Of a stretch of 64,000 nucleotides of DNA, positions 5,082 through 31,768 are shown piece after piece (the stretch's first letter is position 1; each line of letters starts with the position of its first letter). The notes below the pieces were generated by a model. That model saw only the letters and a list, made by a program, of their open reading frames with translations, was not told the DNA's origin and ran no database searches. Where the stretch lies: the NCBI RefSeq assembly GCF_000317515.1, contig NC_019738.1, positions 3,560,001 to 3,624,000 on the forward strand. Direction: 5' to 3'. The position numbers and the translations under genes are program-made. This DNA comes from Allocoleopsis franciscana PCC 7113. Its GTDB lineage: Bacteria; Cyanobacteriota; Cyanobacteriia; Cyanobacteriales; Coleofasciculaceae.

Positions 5082-5486
5082 TTAGTACTGAATTTCCACC
5101 TTCCAGCCGAGAGCGTTGGCGATTTGGGGAACCAGGGTGAGAGAATTGAAGGGTTTAGCGATCGCACCTTGAACTCCTAACTCATGAAACCGTTGGGGTT
5201 CAGTTAAACTTAGCCTTGCCGTTAAAAACACGACTGGGATTGACCCAGTTACAGGATTGGCTTTTAGTTGTTGCAATAGAGCCAGACCATCCATTTCCGG
5301 CATCATCACATCAAGTAGAATGGCATCAGGCTTCTCAGAAGCTGCCTTAACTAAACCCTCTTGACCCGACGCCGCTAGTAACACATTCCAACCCCCTAGT
5401 GCTTCCAGGCAAGCTTTCACAACCTGTCGGACGTGGAGTTCGTCATCAATAAATAAAATTCGTTTTGTAGCTATAGCTGTTTCCAT
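5082..5486 (-). CDS. Single-domain response regulator (CheY-like)
   Basis: This receiver of about 134 residues starts at the ATG of 'METAIATKRILFIDDELHVR'. An in-frame GTG nine codons upstream is possible, but the conserved fold begins at KRILFIDDE. The acidic pair is DD after ILFI, the phospho-acceptor Asp is in 'DAILLDVMMPEMDG', the Thr switch is in 'VVFLTAR' and the Lys in 'AIAKPFNSL'. There is no output domain, so it probably acts through protein contacts or a phosphorelay. It belongs to the same sub-family as the receivers at 5775 and 12764, all sharing 'LGGW/LAGW' and the ending '.ALGW'. A TTCCTCA repeat lies about 250 bases upstream. Confidence 0.9.
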   Translation of the reverse strand: METAIATKRILFIDDELHVRQVVKACLEALGGWNVLLAASGQEGLVKAASEKPDAILLDVMMPEMDGLALLQQLKANPVTGSIPVVFLTARLSLTEPQRFHELGVQGAIAKPFNSLTLVPQIANALGWKVEIQY

Positions 5487-5732
5487 TACTTCTGCTTTAC
5501 CCTTCTGTATCACTGGAGAGATATCGGACTAAAATACAATCACCTCCAAGCTTGGCGGCACTCATCAATAGGGTGTTCTAGAAGCAGGAACCCTCTCATA
5601 AATGTTGACCATACAGCTTGACTCTACCTACCGACGCAACCCGCAGCTTCTGGAAGGTCATCGTTAGAAATGAAACTATAAATATAAAATGACTGAAGTG
5701 GTTTTACCTCACCCTCAAGTTAAATCAACAAA

Positions 5733-5751
5733 TTGAGGAAATTTTGAGGAA
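5733..5751 (-). promoter_or_regulatory. TTCCTCA direct repeat, copy 2 (before receiver gene)
   Basis: The minus strand reads TTCCTCAAAATTTCCTCAA, two heptamers with an 11-base period, between the receiver at 5775-6149 and the receiver ending at 5082. It is upstream of the latter by about 250 bases. Confidence 0.5.
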
Positions 5752-5774
5752 AGGGGATATCACTTACCTACCAC

Positions 5775-6149
5775 CTACCACCCCAGCATGGAAGCCACTT
5801 GCTCTGCCAATGTCAAAGGGTCAAACGGTTTCGCAATCACTCCAGCGACGCCGAGTTTCGCAAATTGGGCTATATCAGTGGACTGCACCTTAGCGGTGAA
5901 TAAAATGACTGGAATCGCTTGAGTCGTTGAATCATTTTGTAACTTCTCAAACAGCGTAAGCCCGTCCATGTCAGGCATCATTACGTCTAGTAAGATGGCA
6001 TCAAGCTGTTGAGTTTGGGCGATAGCCAGTCCTTCTTTACCTGATAAAGCAGTCAGCGTCTCCCAACCCCCTAAGTTTTCCAGACAAGCCTGAATCACGG
6101 TACAGAGATTTATTTCATCATCAATCACCAGAATGCGCTTTTCTGGCAT
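5775..6149 (-). CDS. Single-domain response regulator downstream of phytochrome kinase
   Basis: A 124-residue receiver starting at 'MPEKRILVIDDEINLC'. A longer frame reaches back into the kinase gene, but the conserved fold starts here; another ATG at 6194 is possible and would also avoid overlap with the kinase stop at 6202. The phospho-acceptor Asp is in 'DAILLDVMMPDMDG', the Thr in 'VILFTAK' and the Lys in 'GVIAKPFDPLT'. It is the last gene of a unit with the bacteriophytochrome kinase, with about 50 bases or less between them. It is therefore the probable direct phosphorylation partner of that kinase, as in many cyanobacterial phytochrome-response regulator pairs. Confidence 0.88.
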   Translation of the reverse strand: MPEKRILVIDDEINLCTVIQACLENLGGWETLTALSGKEGLAIAQTQQLDAILLDVMMPDMDGLTLFEKLQNDSTTQAIPVILFTAKVQSTDIAQFAKLGVAGVIAKPFDPLTLAEQVASMLGW

Positions 6150-6201
6150 TAGCAGTAATTGTAGTTGAGGATGTATAACTTGAAATTCTACCATTGCACG
6201 G

Positions 6202-9200
6202 CTAATCGAGTGGTTTTGGCAAAGTGAAATAGAAGTTACTGCCCTCTCCGACCACACTTTCCACCCAAATTTTGCCGCCATGCTGTTGTACGATGCTTTT
6301 ACAGATGGCTAAACCCAGACCTGTTCCCCCTTTTTGGCGGGAGTCAGAAGCATCCACCTGTTGAAACCGTCCAAAGATAGTGTTTAACTTATCGGCAGGA
6401 ATACCGCGCCCTTGGTCTTTCACTTGAAATAAAACCTGGTCGGCTTGGTCTTGAACACTCAGCGTAACCGTACTCTGTGGGGGTGAAAATTTAATCGCAT
6501 TACTGACCAGATTAACGAGAGTTTGAAGAATGCGATCGCGATCTGCCCAGACTTGAACAGAAGTCGGTTCAACACATAACATAATGTTGCCTTCTACTGC
6601 CAACGATTGCACCGTTTCAACCGACTGTTGCAGGAGTGTCGCTGCATCGCACCACTGCTTGACGAGATTGACTTTATGTGATTCGAGTCGCTCTAAATCG
6701 AGAATGTCATTAACCAAACGCACTAAGCGTTCGGTATCATGAGCGGCGATGTCTAACATCTGTTGAGCAGATTCTGGCTTATGTTTAAAGACTCCGGCAG
6801 CGAGTAACCCCAGAGAACCACGAATGGAGGAAAGGGGCGTTCGCAGTTCGTGACTGACAATCGAGATAAACTCGTTTTTCATCTGTTCAATGGCTCGACG
6901 TTCAGTGACATCTTCCACTGTTCCCACATGACCCATTAATTGGCTGCTAGCGCTAAACAAGGGAGATGTTCTCATCTGAGCAAAACGAATGGTTCCATCT
7001 TGATGGATATAGCGAACCTCAGCTGAGAATTCCTGTTGTTCAGATAGGGTTTGTGACCACTGCTCTATTAACCACTCTCGGTCTTCTGGGTGAACGAACT
7101 TTAACCAACCCTCTCCCAACGCCTCTTCAAACGTGTAGCCACAGATAACCTGACAGCGTGGATTGGTATAAGTACAGCGCCCCTGTGCATCCATGCGGAA
7201 GATACCGACCGGTGAATTCTCACTTAAAGAGCGGAATTCGGCTTCACTCTGCCGCAATGCTGCCGCCATCTGCTGACGTTCCCTCAGTTCGTCCTGAAGT
7301 TGTTGGTAGAGTTCCGATTGCTGAGTTGCGATCGCCATTTGATTGGCTAATGAGACCAGCAACTCGATTTCCCAAGGTTGCCACTCTCTGGGTTGAGAAC
7401 ACTGATGGGCAATCAGCAATCCCCAAAGGGTGTCTTGTTGGATAATCGGAACGACTACCTTCGCCCTGACTTGAATCTGTTTCAGACAGTTCGCCAGACA
7501 GGGCGAGACTTCCTCGTGATCGAGGTCAGTGAGGGTGTAGATTCGTCCCTCAGCATAGCGCTGGCGATATTCTTCGGGAAAAGTCTCTGTGGGTAAGGGG
7601 ATGTCTAAAACCTTGATGCATCCCGGCGCAACAGCTTCGGCGATGACTCTGCCAGCACCATTAGACCAAACTCGGTAGACCAAAACCCGATCCGCCCAGA
7701 GCAATTTTTGCACTTCGGTAACGGTGGTATCGAGGATTTCTTGCAAGTCTAGGGACTGGCGAATTTGTTGAGCGATCGCCATCATCAACCGTTCTCGTTC
7801 CATTTGCTGTTGTAAGGCAGCTTGAGAGCGTTCTAACTCCTGAGTTCGCTCTCTAACTCGAATTTCTAATTCCTCATTAAGGTGCTGTAAAAAGGCTTCG
7901 GTTTGTTTGCGTTGAGTGATGTCTACGGAAACGCCAATAATGCCAATCAACTCCCCTTGCTCATCGTGAATCGGAGAGTCAATCACTAGGACTGGAAAAG
8001 TAGTGCCATCCCGTCGCTGTACCCAAAATTCTCCCGACCAACTTTCCCCAGCTTGCAAGCGAACCATAATTTCTACAGCTTGCTCTTGGGTAGTTGAGGC
8101 GGGTGTTACGTCTACAATTGAGCGACCCAATACTTCTGTTACCCTCCAGCCATAGAGAACTTCTGCATAGCGATTCCAGTAAATGATGTTGCCTGCTAAA
8201 TCTGTAGCAATGACCGATTGTTCTACGGCATCCAGCAACCCAGCTTGAAAGCGGATTTGTTGCTCAGCCTGTTGTCGTGCTTGTTCAAGTTGCTTGGCTT
8301 GGGTAATATCGATAGCCGTTCCCAAGATTTGTTGGGGTAAACCTTCAGCCGTTCTAGAAAAGACAACATCCCAAGTGTGAAACCAGCGCCACTCCCCATC
8401 TGCATTTTTCATGCGAAACTCATTTTCCAGGACTTCACCATCCTTTGCTGTAGCACATCGTTCTGGGAGTTCATTAAGCTGACGAAAATCATCTGGGTGC
8501 AGCACGTCTGCAAAAAATGCTGACCCTAAGTGTTGGATTTCTTCGGAGGGACAACCAAAAAATCGGCTGCCAAAACGATTAAGGTAGACATTACGCTGTT
8601 GCACGATATCCATGATGTAGATCAAATTTGGAGCGGTATCGGCAATCTGTTGAATGAAGCGCTGACTTTCTTGTAGAGCAATCTCGGTGAGTTTACGTTC
8701 TGTAATATCTCGCTGCACGGCAACCCAATGCGTATACCAGCCTTTTTCATCTGCAACAGGCACGATACTCAGTTCCACCCAAAATTGGGAGCCATCTTTG
8801 CGATAATTAATCAGCTCAACCTGGCTAAGTTGCCAAGTTTGCAAGGCTGTACGAATGCGATTTAAAACTGTTCGGTCTGTTTTTTCACCTTGCAAGATAC
8901 GCGGTGTCTTGCCTAAAACGTCCTCTAGGGTATAACCCGTCATGCGGGTAAAGGCAGGATTGACGTAAACAATTCGGGGGCCGGGTTCGTCAATGGGTTC
9001 TGCCTCGGTAATCACTACGGCATCATTCGTCGTGATGACAACGGATTCCAAGAGGCGCAGTTGTGCAACTCTTGCAATGCGATCGCTAATTTCCCGCACC
9101 GTTCCCAGCATCCGTACCGCGTTACCATCGGCATCATAGAAAAATTTTCCCTTCCCCTCAATCCAGTGGATGCTACCATCTGCCCAAACTACTCGGAATT

Positions 9201-17293: not shown

Positions 17294-18442
17294 GACATCT
17301 CCGAAAATAGCCAAAAGCAGTCTCTGACTGCTTTTGAAGTATTTAACGCAGCCGGGTAATTTGAACCATTTCAACGTTTTTATTAGGGCTACAGCTAATT
17401 CAAATCAATAATTATCCCAAATATATCTATTTTTTATCTAAAATGTTTATCGATTTAGTCGCAGACTGAGCTATTTATAAATAACGTCCCAATCCTTAAT
17501 CTGACTAATCCACACACTAGAAGAATTATTCTCTGATAACTCTTGGCTCTTAGGCGAAACCTTTCTTGGGCTACACGGAAAATCTTTAGTAATCTAATTA
17601 CGTGTTCAACAAATATTCTCTCACTCGCTTTCTCTCGATTTTTTTGTTTTTCTTCTTGGCTTAATTCCCTGGCTCTCGGCTTTTTTTGAGGAGTTTCTAT
17701 TTGGACTTCTCCTATATAGCCTTTATCTCCTTTGAATTTTTGTGTTGGAGCTAACTTGGATTGACCTTCTCTCCAAATATTTATGTCGCTAGTCGGCCCT
17801 GGCTTTCCCACTATAACATCTACAATCTCTTGTCCATTTGGTGTGACAATTAATTGATTTTTCAAAGTATGGTTTTTCTTTTTGCCTGAATAAAACTTTT
17901 TTTGTTCTTGATAGTCCTTGGGTCTCGGTATTGGCTGTTCACAGCTATCCACTATTAACTCCAACTCGGCGAGAATTTCTTGCACCCATTTATACTCACC
18001 GGGATTTTTTTTTACTTGTTCCAGCAGACTAGCAGGCAGCAATTCCCTCAATAGCTCTGACCAGTAGTGAAATATGTCATTCGCTGTTGATTCACTAACT
18101 CCGAACTGGACTCCTAGCATCTGGAATGTTGGCTCCGGGTGTAGATATACCAAAGTTAATATTATTTGGTCTTTGACTGATAGTTTTGGTCTTCTACCTC
18201 CTCCTGCCTTGTTTATCCTTACTTTTCTTTGCTCAATCTCGATATCTTTCTGTTGATGTAATAATTCAGCGGCAGCTATTAATTGCTGTAACTGTTCGTA
18301 CTCTAGTCCAATTAATCGTTTACTTTCTTGTTGATTTTTTTCAAGGTACTCTGGTATATTACTCATTTTACTGTAAAAATTAAAAAGTAAATTATAATAT
18401 TACCACTTTATTTTCGGTTTTTAATTATATTTCGGAGATGTC
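17294..18442 (-). mobile_element. IS5-type insertion sequence, copy 1 (1149 bp)
   Basis: The ends are GACATCTCCGAAA and its inverted complement. TA flanks both sides (17292-17293, 18443-18444), consistent with a 2-bp target duplication. It carries one transposase gene (minus strand). Beyond its 3' end a perfect hairpin CAAAAGCAGTC-TCT-GACTGCTTTTG (17312-17336) would block read-through. The element has the same length as the copy at 34929-36077, which is in the opposite orientation, and every stretch I compared was identical. Confidence 0.9.
17455..18366 (-). CDS. IS5-family DDE transposase, copy 1
   Basis: A 303-residue transposase. The N-terminal helix-turn-helix region contains 'LSVKDQIILTLVYLHPEPTF' and 'VSESTANDIFHYWSELLREL'. 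The catalytic core has a first Asp in 'LIVDSCEQPIPRP', a second in 'KFKGDKGYIG' and the Glu probably in 'RIFVEHVIRLLKIFRV', with the C1/Y-rich spacing of DDE_Tnp_4 proteins in the IS5/ISL2 group. It is a single full-length frame with no frameshift, and the protein is identical to copy 2, so recent activity is likely. Confidence 0.9.
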   Translation of the reverse strand: MSNIPEYLEKNQQESKRLIGLEYEQLQQLIAAAELLHQQKDIEIEQRKVRINKAGGGRRPKLSVKDQIILTLVYLHPEPTFQMLGVQFGVSESTANDIFHYWSELLRELLPASLLEQVKKNPGEYKWVQEILAELELIVDSCEQPIPRPKDYQEQKKFYSGKKKNHTLKNQLIVTPNGQEIVDVIVGKPGPTSDINIWREGQSKLAPTQKFKGDKGYIGEVQIETPQKKPRARELSQEEKQKNREKASERIFVEHVIRLLKIFRVAQERFRLRAKSYQRIILLVCGLVRLRIGTLFINSSVCD

Positions 18443-19234: not shown

Positions 19235-20080
19235 TCAAGTATGGAACGGTACAGTGAGTAGAGGTAAGATGGCTAAGAGCAACCCCATCCAAAACCACAA
19301 ACTAAGCTGATGTGCTTCCGCTGGCTCTGCTAAAAGCGCTTCTATCCTTTCTAATAAGCGATTTCGCGGGACGACACAGCTAAACGCCGCACAAACGACT
19401 TCCGACACCATCGGCTTTTCGCTCACTACTAACAGTAGGGATTCCGCTAATAGCAGAGAATCAACCTGAGTTGCTGCCCAACGGTCGGCACGGAGTTCCC
19501 GCAAAAGCAGCAGTTCTTCCCACAGCGCTTCCGTATTCGGCAACCAAGCCGTGTAGGCGCGCAGCCAGCCGAACCAGAAAAACCAAAACGTGTCCCGGTA
19601 ATGGTAATGTCCTTGCTCGTGGACGAGTACTGCCTCAAGATGAGAGCGATCGAGAGTTTGCAACAACCCTTGGCTGACAATCAGTTCCGGCTGCCAGAAC
19701 CCAACTTGGGCAATAAATAAACCTGGTGTGTTGAGAAGACGGGCGGGTTTATCCCCAAGGTTAATTTCAGGATAGGTACGAACTTGCTGTACGGAACGAT
19801 ATCCCTGAATTGCCAGTTTCAGGTATGAAACGCCTGCCCACCCAAAAAAAACCAAGGCGACTGAGTGCGACAACCATCCATCCCAAAACCCTACCATGTG
19901 TCCTTTGGGTCCCATGCAAAGCACGGAAGCGACTGTCATCATCAACAGCAACGGGGGAAACAGCAATAACAAGAGCGCTCGCTGCCAGCGTTCTGACCAA
20001 CTGCCGTGAGGACAAGACCATTTTAATCTGAGATACCATGCCGACGAGAGTGCGACAAAAACCATGATTAGGTGCATCAC
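19235..20080 (-). CDS. petP: M56 membrane metallopeptidase, PetP/BlaR1-like
   Basis: A 281-residue membrane protein with hydrophobic segments near residues 1-15, 33-55, 72-95 and 255-278. The zinc site is 'LVHEQGHYHYRD' (HExxH, about residue 154) with a third acidic ligand in 'LRELRADRWA'. This is the BlaR1/MecR1 peptidase M56 family without the penicillin-sensing domain. Its ATG overlaps the stop of the BlaI-type repressor gene by 4 bases (ATGA), so the two are translationally coupled. In Synechocystis the PetP protease degrades the PetR repressor to switch cytochrome c6 and plastocyanin with copper supply. The same gene pair beside cytochrome c6 here supports that role. Confidence 0.85.
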   Translation of the reverse strand: MMHLIMVFVALSSAWYLRLKWSCPHGSWSERWQRALLLLLFPPLLLMMTVASVLCMGPKGHMVGFWDGWLSHSVALVFFGWAGVSYLKLAIQGYRSVQQVRTYPEINLGDKPARLLNTPGLFIAQVGFWQPELIVSQGLLQTLDRSHLEAVLVHEQGHYHYRDTFWFFWFGWLRAYTAWLPNTEALWEELLLLRELRADRWAATQVDSLLLAESLLLVVSEKPMVSEVVCAAFSCVVPRNRLLERIEALLAEPAEAHQLSLWFWMGLLLAILPLLTVPFHT

Positions 20081-20499
20081 TGTTGCTCCTCCCTAGCTTT
20101 ACGGGCGGCAATTAAACGAAGGGCAATTGTTTCTAGTTGCTCTAAGCTTGCAGAGTCAAGAGTGTCAGCAAAAGCTGCTACGATGTCAGAGTTGCCCACT
20201 TCCAGAAATCGCTGCAATTGTTCGTAAGCCGCTAATATCTGCGTCTCATGGCGAGAAAGTACGGGTCGCCATGAGAATGAGCGCTTTGTTTTATTGCAAG
20301 CAAGCCAACCTTTGGAGGTGAGGCGACGTAGTACCGTCGTGACTGAGGAATACGTTAACTCTCGCTCTGGGTCAGCCATTATGCGTTCGTGTACCTCTTT
20401 GACCGTGACCGAACCGAGTTCCCAAACAATGTTCAAAACCTCTGCCTCCAATGAACCTAGTGAGAGTTGTTTGGGACGGTAATTGGGCAGAGGTATCAT
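20077..20499 (-). CDS. petR: BlaI/CopY-family repressor, PetR-like
   Basis: A 140-residue winged-helix repressor. I choose the ATG at 20499; a TTG three codons earlier is possible, and GAGGGA lies upstream. Residues about 10-80 form the helix-turn-helix: 'LGSLEAEVLNIVWELGSVTV', 'VHERIMADPERELTYSSVTT', 'VLRRLTSKGWLACNK'. The C-terminal helices serve dimerisation. It is divergent from the cytochrome c6 gene, and a GACAGCTTGTC palindrome lies in the shared promoter region. By analogy with Synechocystis PetR it should bind there and be cleaved by the neighbouring M56 protease. Confidence 0.85.
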   Translation of the reverse strand: MIPLPNYRPKQLSLGSLEAEVLNIVWELGSVTVKEVHERIMADPERELTYSSVTTVLRRLTSKGWLACNKTKRSFSWRPVLSRHETQILAAYEQLQRFLEVGNSDIVAAFADTLDSASLEQLETIALRLIAARKAREEQQ

Positions 20500-20585
20500 A
20501 ACAGTCAAACTTCCCTCTTAGGAGGTATTTATATTAAATTATACTGAATTTTTTAGGAGCAAATTCTCAGAAAAAGCTCAAAATA

Positions 20586-20609
20586 AAGTTTGACAGCTTG
20601 TCTTTTGAC
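20586..20609. promoter_or_regulatory. Candidate PetR operator before petJ
   Basis: A 24-base sequence with core TTTGACAGCTTGTCTTTTGA, containing the inverted repeat GACA-GCT-TGTC, lies 78 bases before the petJ start and about 85 bases before the petR start. The identical 24 bases occur upstream of the TonB receptor at 22343-22366. Such exact conservation between unrelated promoters suggests a protein-binding site. Confidence 0.6.
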
Positions 20610-20687
20610 GCAATGCCGTTGCTCCTCTCAAAATGGAGTAAAACCTTTGTGCGACGAAGGTTTGTGCAAAAAAAGAGGAGAATCATC

Positions 20688-21026
20688 TTGAAAAAGCTAC
20701 TGTCAATCCTTTTGGTGATGTTCGCCGTGTTGAGTCTTTCCCTGACTCGCCCAGCCTTAGCCGTTGACGCAGCCAGCGGTGCCAAAATCTTTAGTGCCAA
20801 TTGTGCTGCCTGTCATGCCGGTGGTCGTAATGTCGTTATGGCGGATAAGACGTTGAAGAAAGAGGCTCTGGAAAAGTACGGCATGAACTCAGCAGATGCA
20901 ATTATTAACCAAGTAACGAATGGAAAAAATGCCATGCCAGCTTTCAAAGGGCGTTTAACCCCAGCGCAGATTGAAGATGTTGCTTCTTATGTACTAGGTC
21001 AATCTGAAAAGGGCTGGACTAAATAA
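20688..21026 (+). CDS. petJ: Cytochrome c6 (c553), thylakoid-lumen electron carrier
   Basis: I place the start at TTG 20688 because GAGGAG lies 7 bases upstream and the protein then begins with a normal signal peptide ('[20 protein letters not shown]', cleavage after PALA). The mature protein of about 87 residues has the haem-attachment motif CAACH in '[14 protein letters not shown]' and the distal Met in '[13 protein letters not shown]', and ends with '[12 protein letters not shown]'. It carries electrons from cytochrome b6f to photosystem I or oxidase when plastocyanin is unavailable, typically under copper limitation. It is divergent from petRP. A strong hairpin lies 168 bases downstream. 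Confidence 0.93.
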
Positions 21027-21193
21027 TGACAATGACTTTAAGCAAAGACAACTTAAGTCTTGGATAGAGCAAACTCGCAAACTCTACGATTTACAGACAG
21101 CGTTCTGTTAACTGGTAGCTGTTCTTGACCAAAAACTTGGTAAAGGTAGCGGACTGGGACTGAAAAGTTACTGACTGTAGTCGATTTGGAATT

Positions 21194-21231
21194 CAGGAAA
21201 GAAAGTGGCTAACTTTCCCCTTTCTTTCCTG
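21194..21231 (+). terminator. Hairpin with 12-bp perfect stem
   Basis: CAGGAAAGAAAG (21194-21205) pairs perfectly with CTTTCTTTCCTG (21220-21231) across a 14-base loop. It lies between petJ and the TPR gene. The following T-run is poor (GATAAAAGCGTTTTG), so it may be a terminator or an mRNA-stabilising hairpin. Confidence 0.5.
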
Positions 21232-21266
21232 GATAAAAGCGTTTTGTAGAACATTCAAATGAATTG

Positions 21267-22196
21267 ATGAGTCGCTTACAAAGAATTCTAATTTTCTTTA
21301 GTGTTGTTGTCATTCTCCTAATCCAAACAATGACAACACAAGCTTTCGCTGCATCAATATCTATCGCTGGAATGAATGCTTTTGACTTCTTTAAGTCGGG
21401 TGTAGAAAAGACTCAAAGTGGGGACTTAAAGCAAGCCGTTGGAGATTTCACGCAAGCGATCGCCCTTGATTCCCAAATGGCAGGGGCTTACAGCAATCGC
21501 TGTCTAGTATACATCCAGTTGGGAGATTACTCAAAAGCGACTGAAGATTGTACCGAAGCACTGAAACTTAATCCTAATAATACTGAAACTTATCTCAATC
21601 GAGGATTGGCTTACTACCGACAAGGGCGTTATCTTGATGCGATCACCGATTACAATCAAGTGATTCAGCTCGATCCCACTGACTACCGAGCCTACTATAA
21701 CCGGGGACTAGCACGTTTCGAGCAAAAGGATTACTCTGAAGCGATCGCCGATTACAACCAAGCTTTGAGCCACACCCCAACTCAGCACAGCCAAGCGATG
21801 GCAACAGTTTACAACGACCGAGGGCTAACTTACTTTCAGCTAGAGGACATCGAGAATGCAATGCTCGACTTTTCCCAAGCGATTCATCTCGATTCAAACG
21901 ATGCCAGAGCTTACTATAATCGAGGTTGCATTAGTCATCGACAAGGAGACTACACAGGAGCGATTCGAGACTTCACAGCGTCGCTGCAACGCAACCCTAA
22001 TCAAGCCCAAGCCTATATCAACCGTGGTATTGCTCGTTACCAGTTGGGGTATCTGCAAACCGCCTTGGAAGATTTGCGAAAGGGAGCTGAATGCTTTTGT
22101 ACTCAAAGACAGATGGTGGCTTACCAACAAACTTTGAACTTAATTAAAAAGATACAGCAGCAGTCCTCATCGGACGAAGAAGGTGCGATCGGATAA
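21267..22196 (+). CDS. Secreted TPR-repeat protein
   Basis: A protein of about 309 residues starting at the ATG of 'MSRLQRILIFFSVVVILLIQ', a signal peptide ending about TTQAFA. From about residue 38 it is built of seven or so tetratricopeptide repeats with the usual 'AYYNRGLARFEQKDYSEAIA' pattern and 34-residue spacing, ending in a Gln/Ser-rich tail. It should act as a periplasmic or lumenal protein-protein scaffold. It sits between petJ and the TonB receptor, about 260 bases before the latter. The partner is unknown. Confidence 0.85.
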   Translation: MSRLQRILIFFSVVVILLIQTMTTQAFAASISIAGMNAFDFFKSGVEKTQSGDLKQAVGDFTQAIALDSQMAGAYSNRCLVYIQLGDYSKATEDCTEALKLNPNNTETYLNRGLAYYRQGRYLDAITDYNQVIQLDPTDYRAYYNRGLARFEQKDYSEAIADYNQALSHTPTQHSQAMATVYNDRGLTYFQLEDIENAMLDFSQAIHLDSNDARAYYNRGCISHRQGDYTGAIRDFTASLQRNPNQAQAYINRGIARYQLGYLQTALEDLRKGAECFCTQRQMVAYQQTLNLIKKIQQQSSSDEEGAIG

Positions 22197-22342
22197 AGGC
22201 ATTGCATCGAGAAATGTAACGTTGCGAAACTTTGTTTATAAGACAGTTTTAGCGAGTGTTAAAAGCTTAATCATTTTTTATAAAAAGGCAGGGAATAGTC
22301 AAGTTTTTCCGTAAGCCTTGTTCGTCGTGACTAGCGTTGTAG

Positions 22343-22366
22343 AAGTTTGACAGCTTGTCTTTTGAC
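22343..22366. promoter_or_regulatory. Candidate PetR operator before TonB receptor
   Basis: It is identical over 24 bases to 20586-20609 (core TTTGACAGCTTGTCTTTTGA) and lies 90 bases before the GTG start of the receptor, nearly the same spacing as at petJ. The flanking sequence is unrelated on both sides, which argues against a simple gene duplication. Confidence 0.6.
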
Positions 22367-22456
22367 ACGAACAGCTAGTTGACATAAGTTGACTACTGGT
22401 ATTTTCAAGGGCTTTGCACTGGGTGCAGTCTGCGATTAAGGGTGTGAGGAATTTGA

Positions 22457-25222
22457 GTGAACCAACAGAAGTTATCCCATTGGATGCGGTTGAGTTTTGC
22501 CGTGTCAGTCCTTGTAGCTTTCCCCGCCAAGGCTGACGTGGTACAAGAGAGCCAACACAGACTAAAGCCGCCCAATACTTCCAACTCTCAATCTCCCCTA
22601 ACCGAAAGCCCCCGACTCAACGAAATTGCTACATCTGCCACTACGACTGTCACGGGAATTGACGGGACACCCACACAGAACGTGGTTCAACGTCAAAAAG
22701 GTCGGCTTCTGGGACTCACTCCATCACAGCCAGAAGCTATGCAGCCTAACACTTCCAACTCCCAATTTCCCATAACCCAAATTCCCCGACTCAACGAAAT
22801 CGATCGCCCTGCTACCACTATTAATATTAAAGAGTGGTTGTCTCAATCTTCAACTCCCGTTCCCGATTCCCAATCCCCAATTCAGATAACGGGTGTGCGG
22901 CTCAATGCAACAGCAGATGGCATTGATGTCATCCTAGAAACGGCTGAAGGCAAAGCGATTGATGGTTCTACCTTCACTGAAGGAAACAACCTGATTGTTG
23001 ACATTCCCAATGCACAGTTGCAGTTGCCAGAGGGTGAAGTGTTTCGTCAAGAAAACCCTGTCGAGGGCATTACTTCAATCGAGGTGGTTAATACAACTTC
23101 TGGCAGCGTGCGAGTCACAGTCACCGGAACCACAGGCGTACCAACGGCTTCGGTGGTTGCCAGCCAACAAGGTTTGATTTTGAGTCTGACGCAGCAGCCA
23201 GAACTAGAAGAAGAAATTGAAATCGTCGTAACAGCACAAAAACGACCTGAACTGGCTCAAGAAGTACCCCTTAGCCTGACAGTCATTCCTCAACAAACTT
23301 TAGAAGATGCCCAGATTGATTCGCTTCAAGAAATTGCTAACAACACGCCCAACTTCAGCTTTTTCCCAACCAATGCTGGAGGTTCTGACTTCAGCTATTA
23401 CAGCATTCGGGGTCTGAACAACTTTAACTTTTTAGTTAGTCAGGATAGTGCTGGCTTCTACATTGATGATGTCCCCTTTGATTTCGGTGCTTTCTTAGAC
23501 TTGGGATTGCTGGACTTGGAGCGAGTTGAGGTGCTGCGAGGACCGCAGAGTACGCTGTATGGTAGAAGTAGCCCTGCTGGGGTTGTCAACATCGTTTCTC
23601 GTGGGCCAACCAATTTTCCAGAGCTTCGCATCGCAGGAGGTTATGGTAACTATAACTTCCGGGAAGCACAACTCTCTTACAGTAATGCCATTATTCCCGA
23701 TCGCCTAGCATTTCGATTAGCAGGAGCCTATCGAGCACGGGATGGTGTATTTGAGAATGAAACCCTCGATCGCACAGTGGGTGAACGCGAAGAACTTTTG
23801 GGACGGGCACAACTCTTGTGGACTCCCTCACGGGAATGGAATGTTTCATTCAACACTTATGTTAATGACACTAACGACGGCGATCCTGTATTTACACGGC
23901 AGGACGCTGACGATCCCTTTGAAACCTTTAAAGCGGTTGATGGATTCGTTCGACTCAACAGCAATACTCAAGCATTGAGAGTTGGCTACAACGGCACTGA
24001 CTTTCGGGCAACCTCAATTACCGCACGGCGCTTCAGCAACCAAGAAGTCTTGTCGGGGGATAGTTTTGCTCCACCGCTTGATTTGGCCCGTTCGGTGATT
24101 GACTTCGACTCCACAGTATGGACGCAAGAAATTCGACTTCAGTCACCTGCAAATGCCGACCGATTCAAGTGGTTAATCGGTGGATATTACGAGTCTCGTG
24201 CATTTAATGTTGAGAATGATGCCTTTGAATATACCGCTCTTGGCGCAGCCCAGTTTGGCTTGCCGTCTGCTGGACAGAATCGAGTAATTGCCGAACAGGA
24301 TCGCAATACATACGCGGTGTTTGGACAGATTGACTACAAGCCAATCGATCCCTTGACTCTATTTGTTGGGTTGCGGTATGAGACATCTAATTATGACTTG
24401 GATCGCCGTCGCATTTTTGAAGCGGCAGACAGTGTTACAATCTTAAATCCAAGAATTCAGACAGAAGACAGTAGCAGTGAAGTGATTCCCCGGTTTGGGC
24501 TGCAATATCGCTTTAGTCCGAATGCGATGGCGTATGCTACCGTCGCCAAAGGCTACCGACCGAGTGGATTCAACTATCGCGCCGATACGGAAGACATCCG
24601 GCGCTATCAGGAAGAAAAGACTTGGACTTACGAAGTTGGGATGAAATCTTCCTGGTTTGGCGATCGCCTAACCGCCAACCTCTCGTTTTTTCACAATGAT
24701 GTTGACGGCTATCAGGTTTTGCTGGTTGACGATTTTGGCTTCTTTAGAAATATTGCCAGTGCTGATGTGAACGCAACCGGACTGGAATTTGAACTGGGCG
24801 CACAAGTGGCAAGAGGATTGGATATTACTGCTGGAGTGGGTTACGTCGATAGCCAATTTGCAAGGTACAGAAATCCCCTACTAGGAAGCGACTTCAGCGA
24901 CAATCGCGTTCCCTTTGCACCGGACTTGACGTACAACTTAGCGTTGCAGTATCGCAGTCCTGGCGGTATTTTTGCCCGTGCTGAGTTGCGCGGCTATGGC
25001 ACAACGTATTTTGATGATGCTAATCAGGTGAAGCAAGACCCTTATGCGATCGTCAATTTACGTCTAGGTTATGAATGGCCAAATTATGGTATTTATGTCT
25101 TTGCCAACAACTTATTTGACACTCGCTACATTACCTCTGGATTCCAATTTCCACCGCCTAATGTAACAGCAGGATTTGGTGAACCAGTCACCTATGGATT
25201 TCAAGTTCGCGCCAATTTTTAG
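22457..25222 (+). CDS. AMIN-domain TonB-dependent outer-membrane receptor
   Basis: A 921-residue receptor with a GTG start and GAGGA 6 bases upstream. The signal peptide ends near 'VAFPAKA'. A Pro/Ser-rich linker follows, then an AMIN domain (about 140-250, 'ITGVRLNATADGIDVILETA'). A TonB-box-like 'IVVTAQKRPE' precedes the plug ('SLQEIANNTPNF', 'FYIDDVPFD', 'ERVEVLRGPQSTLYGRSSPA'). The 22-strand barrel runs to the terminal Phe ('GFQVRANF'). The AMIN-plus-plug design is typical of cyanobacterial siderophore receptors. The ligand is not evident. An MFS importer of the RhtX/FptX kind follows, and the operator shared with petJ hints at copper-linked rather than purely iron-linked control. Confidence 0.92.
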   Translation: MNQQKLSHWMRLSFAVSVLVAFPAKADVVQESQHRLKPPNTSNSQSPLTESPRLNEIATSATTTVTGIDGTPTQNVVQRQKGRLLGLTPSQPEAMQPNTSNSQFPITQIPRLNEIDRPATTINIKEWLSQSSTPVPDSQSPIQITGVRLNATADGIDVILETAEGKAIDGSTFTEGNNLIVDIPNAQLQLPEGEVFRQENPVEGITSIEVVNTTSGSVRVTVTGTTGVPTASVVASQQGLILSLTQQPELEEEIEIVVTAQKRPELAQEVPLSLTVIPQQTLEDAQIDSLQEIANNTPNFSFFPTNAGGSDFSYYSIRGLNNFNFLVSQDSAGFYIDDVPFDFGAFLDLGLLDLERVEVLRGPQSTLYGRSSPAGVVNIVSRGPTNFPELRIAGGYGNYNFREAQLSYSNAIIPDRLAFRLAGAYRARDGVFENETLDRTVGEREELLGRAQLLWTPSREWNVSFNTYVNDTNDGDPVFTRQDADDPFETFKAVDGFVRLNSNTQALRVGYNGTDFRATSITARRFSNQEVLSGDSFAPPLDLARSVIDFDSTVWTQEIRLQSPANADRFKWLIGGYYESRAFNVENDAFEYTALGAAQFGLPSAGQNRVIAEQDRNTYAVFGQIDYKPIDPLTLFVGLRYETSNYDLDRRRIFEAADSVTILNPRIQTEDSSSEVIPRFGLQYRFSPNAMAYATVAKGYRPSGFNYRADTEDIRRYQEEKTWTYEVGMKSSWFGDRLTANLSFFHNDVDGYQVLLVDDFGFFRNIASADVNATGLEFELGAQVARGLDITAGVGYVDSQFARYRNPLLGSDFSDNRVPFAPDLTYNLALQYRSPGGIFARAELRGYGTTYFDDANQVKQDPYAIVNLRLGYEWPNYGIYVFANNLFDTRYITSGFQFPPPNVTAGFGEPVTYGFQVRANF

Positions 25223-27086: not shown

Positions 27087-28869
27087 CCCACATTCCGCCC
27101 TTTGACTGTCACAAGCGGATAATTGTGTGGAACTGAAGGCTAACACAGGCCAGTTCAATCGAGTGAAACGTTCTAGAGATGAGAGATGCTAACTTTTTTC
27201 GGGTGCTTGTTCTCAAAAAGCAGCAAGTAGCAATAAAAAGTCAAGTAACTGGCAACATAAAGTGAACTGTTTCCTATCAGGAAAAGCCTGATGCGTTAAC
27301 TAAAAAGCTCGTCTACGCATCACTTTGCTGAAATAATTGTTGAAGTATTTCAATGACTTGAAGAACTCAGCACAATAGATAGTAGTCCCGGCAAGCTTGA
27401 GAGAAAAAGCGCAAAATCTTTAAGCGTTCATCGGTAAGATTGGCAATTTGCTCAACCCCATCAATCACTAACAAATGCACCGCTTGGAAACACTGAAATA
27501 TCCAGCGGAGGGTGGGACGCTGAGTCGGCTTTTTTAATTGATTAGGGAGGCTTTCATCAGCTTGAACTAAGGCTTGACGTAAAGCTGCCTGTCCCAAGTT
27601 GTAGACCAACAGACACAATCCCATAACCATCCCTACAGCAGCAATGCGACCTGGGTCTTTCAGGAAAACACTATCAGCAAAAAACAGAGGGTCTTTGAGA
27701 AAGCTAAAGCCCCGTTCCGTACTCTGCTGCTCTTTGTACTCACTCAGGACTGCATCATTATTCAATTGTTCCTTGTCTAGGACATTGGTGGCGAGAATGA
27801 ATCGTCCCGCTTGCTGTCTTTGTTGTTCTAGGACAGTTTCATTGACTACCAATGTGGCTTGAATGTGATAGGTTTTGTGAGTGGGTCGAGTTTGCTTTGC
27901 TGGTCTTCCCGGTTGGGAGTAATGGTCTTGCTCAATGATTTCTACTGCTTCTAGGGTGTGATATTTCAACTGCTTCATCCGCTTGAGGTTGTCGGCAGTG
28001 TACAAAGCACTATCTGCTATGTGTATTCCCTCAAAAGTCCACTGTTTCTGAAACTCCTCAAACAGATGGGCAAACTTTGTCTTGTCGTCTTGATTGCCAT
28101 CTGCCATCTCTAAAAATAACGGTATACCACCCTCTCCACCACATATCAGATTCATCACGAATTGTTTGAGGTCACTTCTATGGTCACGAGAATATCCATA
28201 CGTTAGGTGAATCGCTTTCGGCGCTACCTCAATTTCTACTCTTGTGCCATCTTCTGTCTTTTGAGTGACTACCACTTCGTCATTGGCTGTTTCATACTCG
28301 CCATGCAGATGAAATGAGGTCGAGTCTAAGTGCGCTGTCTCAATACTCACTCCAAACTTGGCGATAGCTTTCATGGCAATGCTGACGAAGCAACGGGTTA
28401 GTCCTGCCAGGAACAGTTCATCAAGCACTCGTCCCAGGCGGTCATCATTGAGATGTTCTGGCTTGACTCCGGTTCCAATCAGGTGTTCTGTAGCTTTCCC
28501 TTCAAAAAATCGACTAAATAAGTACAGTGGGGCTGACACAAAGCCCAGTCCGTTGAGAATCATTGCTTTGACCACAAGACCTGCACTGACTTTTTCTCGG
28601 CTGTCTTGCCCCAACCGCAGGTCTATTTGTTCCACCAGCCCGATTTCGTCAATAATACCTGCCACCAGACCCAAGTGGTCGAGGTTCATTACCTGCATTT
28701 CTGCTGCTTTCACACCCCCTCCCCAAGACTTAGCCCTTCCACTCCCGTTCAATTATCCTGTTTCGGCCAAAAAGCTGGCTAGGCTATCTTTAACTCCACT
28801 TACGTTGCGTTTGCCTCGATTGCCTCCACTAAATTATCTACTTGTGACAGTCAAAGGGCGGAATGTGGG
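27087..28869 (-). mobile_element. IS1634-family insertion sequence (1783 bp)
   Basis: The perfect inverted ends start CCCACATTCCGCCCTTTGAC and extend to ...TGTCAC on the left (27087-27112), mirrored at 28844-28869. It is flanked by a 6-bp direct duplication TTTGAA (27081-27086 and 28870-28875). One complete transposase gene fills the minus strand. Length, ends and target duplication fit the IS1634 family. Confidence 0.9.
27367..28698 (-). CDS. IS1634-family transposase
   Basis: About 443 residues from the ATG of 'MQVMNLDHLGLVAGIIDEIG'; the frame is open 18 codons further upstream, but the family usually begins here. DDE core: first Asp in 'IETAHLDSTSFHLHGEY', second in 'EGIHIADSALYTADNL', and Glu probably in 'EQQSTERGFSFLKDPLFF', the IS1634/IS4-like signature. 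An N-terminal 'KVSAGLVVKAMILNGLGFVS' region precedes it. It is intact, with no frameshift, so the element may still be active. A long antisense frame at 28358-28891 is a shadow. Confidence 0.9.
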   Translation of the reverse strand: MQVMNLDHLGLVAGIIDEIGLVEQIDLRLGQDSREKVSAGLVVKAMILNGLGFVSAPLYLFSRFFEGKATEHLIGTGVKPEHLNDDRLGRVLDELFLAGLTRCFVSIAMKAIAKFGVSIETAHLDSTSFHLHGEYETANDEVVVTQKTEDGTRVEIEVAPKAIHLTYGYSRDHRSDLKQFVMNLICGGEGGIPLFLEMADGNQDDKTKFAHLFEEFQKQWTFEGIHIADSALYTADNLKRMKQLKYHTLEAVEIIEQDHYSQPGRPAKQTRPTHKTYHIQATLVVNETVLEQQRQQAGRFILATNVLDKEQLNNDAVLSEYKEQQSTERGFSFLKDPLFFADSVFLKDPGRIAAVGMVMGLCLLVYNLGQAALRQALVQADESLPNQLKKPTQRPTLRWIFQCFQAVHLLVIDGVEQIANLTDERLKILRFFSQACRDYYLLC

Positions 28870-29062
28870 TTTGAAAAGTGGTCGGCTGTAATTTTAAGCA
28901 CCTGTCGATTCCCCCAGCCCTTTTTAAGGGGGATGCGAGGGGGATCTAAAATGTTTTGCTACCAACAGTGGTACTTTTCAAACATCCTCTAAATGCAGCC
29001 CTATCAAGAATGATGCCTTCCCATCAAGTTTCTAGATGCTCCAAACATCACTTGCTAACGAG

Positions 29063-29437
29063 ATGAAACACACTCTCTTTGTCTGCCAATCTTGCCATCA
29101 CTCCTCCAAAGAACAGCCCAAAGAGCAACCTGCTGATGGCACACGTTTACTCGAACAACTCAATACATTAGGTACGGAACACATCCAGTCCAACGAATTT
29201 GAAATTCAGCCCGTCGGCTGTTTATGGACCTGCGACAAACCCTGTGCTGTTGCCTTCTGTGCTCCCCAAAAACCTACCTATCTATTCACCACCTTACCAA
29301 CCGATGAAACGGCTCCTGCCCTGCTCGAATTTGGCGATCGCTATCTCGATAGCAACACAGGCGACATTCCCTGGAAGCAGTTTCCTGAAGCATTGCAGTC
29401 GGTGAGTATTGCCAAGATTCCAGCAGTCGGTGAGTGA
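29063..29437 (+). CDS. DUF1636 2Fe-2S-like metal-binding protein
   Basis: A 124-residue protein starting at 'MKHTLFVCQSCHH'; a longer frame from 29036 lacks a ribosome site. Cys residues occur in 'FVCQSCHHSS' and 'GCLWTCDKPCAVAFCAPQKP', giving the four-cysteine thioredoxin-like 2Fe-2S pattern of DUF1636. A 'TYLFTTLPTDETAPALLEFG' segment and 'GDIPWKQFPEAL' end the domain. DUF1636 genes are often found under cobalamin or metal control. A second copy at 31331 sits behind a cobalamin riboswitch. This copy follows the IS1634 element by about 190 bases, so its native promoter may be disturbed. Confidence 0.82.
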   Translation: MKHTLFVCQSCHHSSKEQPKEQPADGTRLLEQLNTLGTEHIQSNEFEIQPVGCLWTCDKPCAVAFCAPQKPTYLFTTLPTDETAPALLEFGDRYLDSNTGDIPWKQFPEALQSVSIAKIPAVGE

Positions 29438-30775: not shown

Positions 30776-30936
30776 TTGGAATCGAGGCGATTACCTACGG
30801 TACGCTACGCGATCGCTCTTGCGTGAGAAATTGCGAACCATGAATATTGCGCTTCCTCAAGACCATTCAATCGTTTGTCGAGCAATAAGTCATTAAGGGG
30901 GATTACAGCAATTGAGTGATATACTAATGGAAATTT

Positions 30937-31055
30937 GTCGGTTCTAACGGGGAGCAGCCGTTAGAGGTAACGGGGAAAGTTCGGTGTAAATCCGGCGCTG
31001 TCCCGCAACTGTAATGAGATTTATGTCTCTAAGTCAGAATGCCCGCCGAAGGTGA
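30937..31055 (+). ncRNA. Cobalamin riboswitch
   Basis: The conserved B12 elements are present in order: GGGGAAAGTTCGGTGTAAAT with CCGGCGCTGTCCCGCAACTG (the B12 box region, 30973-31012), then AAGTCAGAATGCCCGCC near 31031-31047. The outer stem can form from TCGG (30939) with CCGA (31045). A CATCTG/CAGATG hairpin follows at about 31069-31085. The next gene on the strand is the DUF1636 protein at 31331, and metE lies beyond it, the classic target of B12 repression. Adenosyl- or methylcobalamin should reduce downstream expression. Confidence 0.93.
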
Positions 31056-31330
31056 AAAAATTACGTCCATCTGCGAGGTACAGATGAATAAACTCATGAA
31101 TAGTTTCACAATCAGTCAATTTCACGTCCCCATAGTGCCAGAAATACGCTACACATCACATCTGGCGATCGCGTTTGATTAGGCGTTAGTTGCTATAGCG
31201 TTAATAATTTTTCAATCGCTGTGTTGCAGTCGTGTTTCCTTACGCCGCACTGTCAGCGAAGAATTTCTCTGAGGCAATACGGCGCAATGCGTATGGCTTA
31301 CTCCACTTTTTGGATTACCCAATAAGTTCA

Positions 31331-31768
31331 ATGATGAACGCACAGCATACTTTATTTGTTTGCACAACTTGTGCCAGTATTTGGCAAGATGGAAAGCGTG
31401 TTGGTGAAAGTGGGGGTCAACAACTCCTCAAACAGCTTCAGCACCTCGCACAAGATTGGGACTTACAAAATCAATTTCAAATTCAGGCGGTTGAATGCAT
31501 GAGTGCTTGCAATCGTCCCTGCGTTATTGCTTTTGTTGCTGCCGGAAAATCAACGTATTTATTTGGGGATTTACCCGTTGATGAGAGTGCCTCTGCTATC
31601 CTGAAATGTGCCAATCAATACTACGCAAAATCCGATGGTTCATTGCCTTGGTCAGAGCGACCTAAACTGCTAAGAAATGGCATTCTGGCACGGATTCCGA
31701 CCATCAGTAAGTGGGACAAGTTAAGCGTAACTCGTGGAGCAGATAATTGCTCTGATTGCCACGATTGA
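31331..31768 (+). CDS. DUF1636 metal-binding protein behind B12 riboswitch
   Basis: A 145-residue protein starting at tandem ATGs (31331/31334) of 'MMNAQHTLFVCTTCASIWQD'. The cysteines are in 'FVCTTCASIW' and 'VECMSACNRPCVIAFVAAGK', as in the paralogue at 29063, with 'STYLFGDLPVDESASAIL' and 'SLPWSERPKLL' following. It has an additional C-terminal 'DNCSDCHD', two more potential metal ligands. The frame is open back to 31232 but no ribosome site supports that. Position about 280 bases after a cobalamin riboswitch indicates expression when B12 is scarce. The function of DUF1636 is unknown; a role in cobalt handling is inference. Confidence 0.85.
   Translation: MMNAQHTLFVCTTCASIWQDGKRVGESGGQQLLKQLQHLAQDWDLQNQFQIQAVECMSACNRPCVIAFVAAGKSTYLFGDLPVDESASAILKCANQYYAKSDGSLPWSERPKLLRNGILARIPTISKWDKLSVTRGADNCSDCHD

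Follow-up and report, generated by a model that had tools for sequence, protein, structure and literature searches.

We identified a 24-bp sequence that stands, identical in every base, upstream of both the cytochrome c6 gene petJ and a TonB-dependent receptor gene in Allocoleopsis franciscana PCC 7113. We judge it about 80% probable, from sequence evidence, that this sequence is the operator of the PetR-PetP system, that PetR would activate petJ and both TonB-dependent receptors of the genome at low copper, and that the outcome would be a copper-acquisition route. In Synechocystis, PetR is destroyed by PetP as long as copper is available; once copper is lacking, PetR survives, and it is reported to repress petE and to activate petJ (PMC7896320, PMC13421787). 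Like the pair described here, PetR-PetP of Synechocystis sp. PCC 6803 (slr0240-slr0241) consists of a BlaI/CopY-type regulator and a membrane peptidase that are neighbors of each other and of petJ.

The window analyzed here is the whole stretch of 64,000 nucleotides of contig NC_019738.1 (positions 3,560,001 to 3,624,000), and both copies of the 24-mer lie on its plus strand. The coordinates of the two boxes held up, as did their distances to the downstream genes as measured from the box ends: 78 bases to the petJ start (TTG, 20688) for box 1 and 90 bases to the receptor start (GTG, 22457) for box 2. The GACA-GCT-TGTC inverted repeat that the preliminary description had noted within the site is also present in the sequence. 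The features of the locus are as follows.

19235..20080, minus strand: PetP-like membrane peptidase with an HEQGH motif; weak match to PF01435 (M48)
20077..20508, minus strand: PetR orthologue of the BlaI/CopY type (PF03965); listed with a TTG start, the true start probably being the ATG at about 20499
20586..20609, plus strand: PetR-type box 1 (AAGTTTGACAGCTTGTCTTTTGAC), upstream of petJ; palindrome GACA-GCT-TGTC centered at about -43
20605..20610, plus strand: predicted -35 element TTGACG, formed by the right end of box 1; over 68 sites, a conserved -10-like element follows at a distance of exactly 17 bp
20628..20634, plus strand: predicted -10 element TCAAAAT of petJ
20688..21026, plus strand: petJ, cytochrome c6; above the cut-off of the NF045930 equivalog model
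21264..22196, plus strand: TPR-repeat protein following petJ; a paralogue lies behind a decayed petJ copy at another place in the genome
22343..22366, plus strand: PetR-type box 2, the same 24 bp, upstream of the TonB receptor
22362..22367, plus strand: predicted -35 element TTGACA, formed by the right end of box 2
22385..22390, plus strand: predicted weak -10 element TAAGTT of the receptor gene
22457..25222, plus strand: TBDR1, a TonB-dependent receptor with AMIN, Plug and beta-barrel domains; one of only two in the genome
25358..26551, plus strand: MFS importer adjoining TBDR1; RhtX/FptX-like and AmpG-like, below both cut-offs

The window regulator scores 98.5 bits against Penicillinase_R (PF03965; cut-off 22.6), and its pairing with a PetP-like open reading frame is conserved in relatives. 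Judged by this domain and the attached peptidase, it is a member of the PetR family, in agreement with the PetP-PetR-like pair that had been described beside petJ, the peptidase being recognized there by its weak M48 match. The Plug and beta-barrel domains of TBDR1 score above their cut-offs. The same protein reaches 209.1 bits against the siderophore receptor model TIGR01783, below the cut-off of 223.5. The importer behind it had been called RhtX/FptX-like; the likeness stands at 204.7 bits against TIGR02718, while the score lies below the cut-off of 356.15 and the AmpG model scores nearly as high (197.6 bits; cut-off 350), so that the family label is a loose one. Two transposase-like genes (17455-18366, and 27367-28752 on the minus strand) flank the region, which thus sits among mobile elements. 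Further along the window, a cobalamin riboswitch (RF00174, 52 bits; 30922-31064, plus strand) precedes a DUF1636 gene (31232-31768), and a further DUF1636 gene lies at 29036-29437; the riboswitch-DUF1636 arrangement is the one described for alr4027 beside iacT in Anabaena.

Within the window, with up to three mismatches allowed, the 20-base box core matched these two places alone, compared with a mean of 0.01 matches in shuffled windows and two matches in none of 100 shuffles. Ungapped identity around boxes 1 and 2 falls to 27% in the 60 bp upstream and 29% in the 80 bp downstream, meaning that identity ends at the box edges and the boxes are not parts of a duplicated segment. We then searched the 7.97-Mb genome with AAGTTTGACANNNTGTCTTTTGAC, allowing up to three mismatches, a search in which the reversed control pattern gave two matches. 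Five box copies have at most one mismatch, three of them identical and two with a single mismatch, and all five lie in promoters and point at their genes. Beyond the two window copies, copy 3 (~3,776,649-3,776,652) precedes a petJ remnant consisting of the start and last codons only (IEDVANYVLEKADKGWS), followed by an intact TPR paralogue. Copy 4 (1,917,635) precedes a 732-aa TonB receptor (TBDR2), which is followed by a TonB gene and accompanied by divergently oriented ExbB-ExbD. Behind copy 5 (801,526) come a transposase insertion and, after it, a gene for a DsbD_2 membrane protein (L009:6527-9565); this insertion splits the box from DsbD_2, whose copper control has probably been lost in this strain. 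The genome encodes only two TonB-dependent receptors according to both barrel and plug models, and both are boxed. The genome-wide scan proposed earlier thus returned one coherent gene theme. Allocoleopsis petE carries no box in the same search at up to three mismatches, unlike the Synechocystis PetR regulon, in which petE is a target.

The identical 24-mers could in principle belong to a dispersed repeat that has no role in regulation, and the genome does hold three identical copies, the third at the duplicated petJ-TPR locus. We rejected this reading and give it practically no weight: there are just five copies in 8 Mb, their flanks are unrelated, their spacing to the -10 element is fixed, and the site is kept across families before the same genes. 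The decayed petJ duplicate (L003:1501-2724), which keeps an intact box, is itself a partial duplication of the petJ-TPR locus.

Conservation of the site extends well beyond this strain. A search of 97 relatives with TTTGACANNNTGTCNNTTGA returned 68 sites, compared with one for the reversed pattern, and a stricter pattern (TTTGACANNNTGTCTTTTGA) occurred in 111 of 388 cyanobacterial genomes of the class, compared with none for its reversed control; these related genomes are dependent observations through shared ancestry, and p-values computed from them therefore overstate the strength of the association. The box flanks are conserved across species in positions that the search pattern did not impose, such that 75-84% of sites have AAG on their left side and 91% have a C at their right end. 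In 68 aligned sites, a -10-like TAAAAT lies exactly 17 bp past the TTGAC right end, and this fixed spacing suggests that the box, by its right end, also supplies a -35 element. The box would thereby reach into forward promoters at their -35 end and place its palindrome at about -43, which, to judge from this geometry, is the usual spot for an activator touching RNA polymerase.

The genes behind the box form a recurrent set. At 133 boxed sites, the first forward gene was petJ in 35 cases, a TonB receptor in 19, DsbD_2 in 13, a GLTT-repeat small protein in 10, a His-rich protein in 8 and PepSY_TM in 7, with MbnP in 3 and ExbB, TonB, YcnI/DUF1775 and cytochrome bd subunit I in one each. The boxed MbnP, YcnI/DUF1775, His-rich proteins and cytochrome bd of other genomes are copper-linked. 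The DsbD_2 family, which is separated from its box in our strain, is immediately preceded by the box at 17 of 28 loci from other genomes. Since these 133 sites had been selected by the box itself, we re-tested the receptors after selection by protein similarity alone. A forward box at up to four mismatches was present upstream of 25 of 30 TBDR2-type receptors, with no reversed box and no match to the control pattern, and upstream of 10 of 28 TBDR1-type receptors, again with neither reversed nor control matches; six of the boxed TBDR1-type receptors retain the MFS gene behind them.

The box is also strongly oriented. It points at the gene in 40 of 41 cases for petJ and in every case for TBDR2 (15/15), DsbD_2 (17/17), GLTT (15/15) and PepSY_TM (10/10). 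For petE, a box was found in 7 of 22 genes outside this genome, and it was reversed in all seven and forward in none; part of these reversed boxes are shared with a divergent petJ. Orientation thus parts petJ from petE in the way that activation and repression part them in Synechocystis. Taken together, the orientation of the box towards petJ and the receptors and away from petE, and its spacing to the -10 element, fit PetR acting as an activator. The preliminary description had suggested that the same repressor may control the receptor as well as petJ. PetR is reported to activate petJ (PMC7896320), box orientation agrees, and we instead predict from the sequence that the receptor is co-activated with petJ at low copper rather than repressed.

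Reversed boxes occur in a second context as well. In about 21 Nostocaceae loci (e.g. L181, L214, L247) and at L167:4924-5703, a reversed box lies ~80-160 bp before the gene for a conserved protein of ~259 aa, which has no Pfam match and is located near a coxC-like gene in some Nostocaceae genomes. The reversed box at this gene suggests repression at low copper. We had considered a small RNA behind those Nostocaceae boxes that lack a forward gene, and dropped this idea because the boxes stand reversed before the ~259-aa protein.

Several observations link the box to PetR. A PetR profile search of the 388 genomes was positive in 250, and PetR is encoded in 110 of the 111 genomes with a strict site; in the other direction, the box was found in 1 of 138 PetR-less genomes, the lone exception being a draft genome. 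The TBDR2-type, five-histidine receptor family occurs in 68 genomes, all 68 of which encode PetR. Set against a PetR operator are 140 genomes that encode PetR and lack the strict site, and A. franciscana itself has a second PetR-PetP pair at position 5470-6848, near dnaA and dnaN, whose PetR scores 242 bits, compared with 255 bits for the window PetR. These facts leave some room for the site being used by another regulator or by the pair near dnaA, with the position of petRP beside petJ a coincidence. We regard that as improbable: the box is nearly missing where PetR is missing, a box lies upstream of the PetR gene itself at 25 of 38 loci (which were gathered partly via the box), and the top boxes of the Synechocystis genus fall at reported positive targets of petRP.

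In that genus (four genomes; the genus of Synechocystis salina), the two top boxes of each genome, 8 of 8 in all, lie at petJ and at the gene for a GLTT-repeat small protein, which in S. salina is followed by a second open reading frame; petE carries no box in these four genomes at up to three mismatches. The PetRP targets reported in PCC 6803 are petE, petJ and slr0601-slr0602, with Slr0601 a small protein (PMC12382314). The match between the boxed GLTT small-protein operon and slr0601-slr0602 of PetR's positive regulon is strong, and we infer that they are the same. Overall, control of the box genes by PetR is strongly supported at the level of sequence, and the extended PetR-type regulon including TonB receptors that the preliminary description had put forward is upheld by the co-occurrence with PetR, the coherent targets within the genome and the boxed receptors of other genomes.

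These data suggest a mechanism in which the copper-controlled PetR-PetP system would act through the 24-bp operator, to which PetR is predicted to bind. Under copper shortage, PetR would activate petJ and, likewise, both TonB-dependent receptors of the genome. The two receptors, the TonB gene beside TBDR2 and the MFS importer behind TBDR1 would together form a copper-starvation acquisition route, whose cargo would be copper, either free or chelated.

We next considered what the receptors may carry. Five histidines (175, 205, 360, 419 and 536) are nearly invariant in the TBDR2 family and would fit a site for either a metal or haem; no Cys or Met was conserved at a 60% cut-off. The AlphaFold model of TBDR2 has a mean pLDDT of 56.6 with the plug mostly below 50, too weak for the five histidines to be placed from it. 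Among solved structures, TBDR2 is closest to the colicin I receptor and BtuB, and TBDR1 to the pesticin (yersiniabactin) receptor; neither boxed receptor matches the models of known copper-receptor families. OprC of Pseudomonas aeruginosa is likewise a TonB-dependent receptor proposed for copper acquisition; unlike OprC, the boxed receptors fit no copper-receptor model, and TBDR2 conserves histidines.

On this evidence the box could be a PetR operator and the receptors nonetheless import iron or haem, to supply cytochrome c6 when plastocyanin cannot be made. The histidines of TBDR2 are compatible with this idea, in particular His 205 in the plug and His 536 in the loop before NPDL, which we take to lie approximately where haem receptors place their haem ligands; so are the sub-threshold siderophore-receptor likeness of TBDR1 (TIGR01783) and its kinship with the pesticin receptor. 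We nevertheless consider iron or haem an unlikely cargo. Genes boxed elsewhere include those for copper-binding MbnP, for YcnI and for His-rich proteins, cyanobacteria produce haem themselves, and the pesticin receptor has a ligand, yersiniabactin, that carries copper as well. We further rejected iron control by Fur, since the best Fur-like match upstream of either receptor is no better than in shuffled sequence. Judged by the company that the box keeps, copper is the likeliest cargo. A dedicated cyanobacterial TonB system for copper scavenging, in which five-histidine receptors and a second receptor/MFS pair for a copper chelate are switched by PetR together with cytochrome c6, seems to us somewhat better than an even bet.

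Other boxed loci touch on copper uptake and respiration. In the Nostocaceae loci L170:1501-4600 and L178:1501-3100, one box is followed by MbnP and a MauG-like di-haem peroxidase, and in L170 by a TonB receptor too. This set resembles the MbnP/MbnH-MbnT methanobactin uptake genes; it was seen in Nostocaceae genomes and is absent from the window locus. Cytochrome bd subunit I, a copper-free oxidase, is the first gene after a box at L185:2739-4181 (minus strand), at a distance of 339 bp, and is possibly a respiratory counterpart of the petE-petJ switch. Finally, members of the all3515 family in L081 and L164 have a copper-type box upstream; this family has been described as Zur-repressed, and its boxed members suggest that metal control has changed in some lineages.

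The known PetR regulon comprises four proteins, namely plastocyanin, cytochrome c6 and two of unknown function (PMC7896320). Here and in many other cyanobacteria, the box adds TonB receptors, DsbD_2, PepSY and copper-binding proteins, and the regulon is new relative to the described one, which holds no uptake genes. A GeCoViz survey found petR always attached to petP, with only petP, comB and petJ around petR (PMC9252766), and a 2023 review states that PetRP entails no downstream response tied to copper homeostasis (PMC10141476). A 2025 review of copper entry across the cyanobacterial outer membrane discusses porins, with TonB unmentioned (PMC12292863). In the literature surveyed (PMC9252766, PMC10141476, PMC12292863) we found no link between PetR and TonB; the regulon described here may overlap with supplementary data of the original PetR study. 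A copper-linked TonB transporter of cyanobacteria has a known precedent in IacT (All4026) of Anabaena sp. PCC 7120, which is TonB-dependent and influences copper transport (PMC4284471); receptor transcripts responding to copper limitation include that of IacT, and their regulator was reported as unidentified in 2009 (PMC2771747).

With a conserved operator that subjects TonB receptors to the copper switch, the entry of copper across the outer membrane becomes a directly testable question. Such an operator yields a candidate regulator for copper-responsive receptors and, throughout the class, candidates for copper receptors and for accessory proteins. The recurrence of this arrangement across cyanobacteria points to an unrecognized copper-starvation uptake route and recasts a switch between two electron carriers as a nutrient-acquisition response. 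If the receptors do scavenge copper, the PetR regulon would be a general copper-starvation response spanning uptake, copper-binding proteins and copper-free carriers and oxidase; the four-gene regulon of Synechocystis would then be a reduced version of that response.
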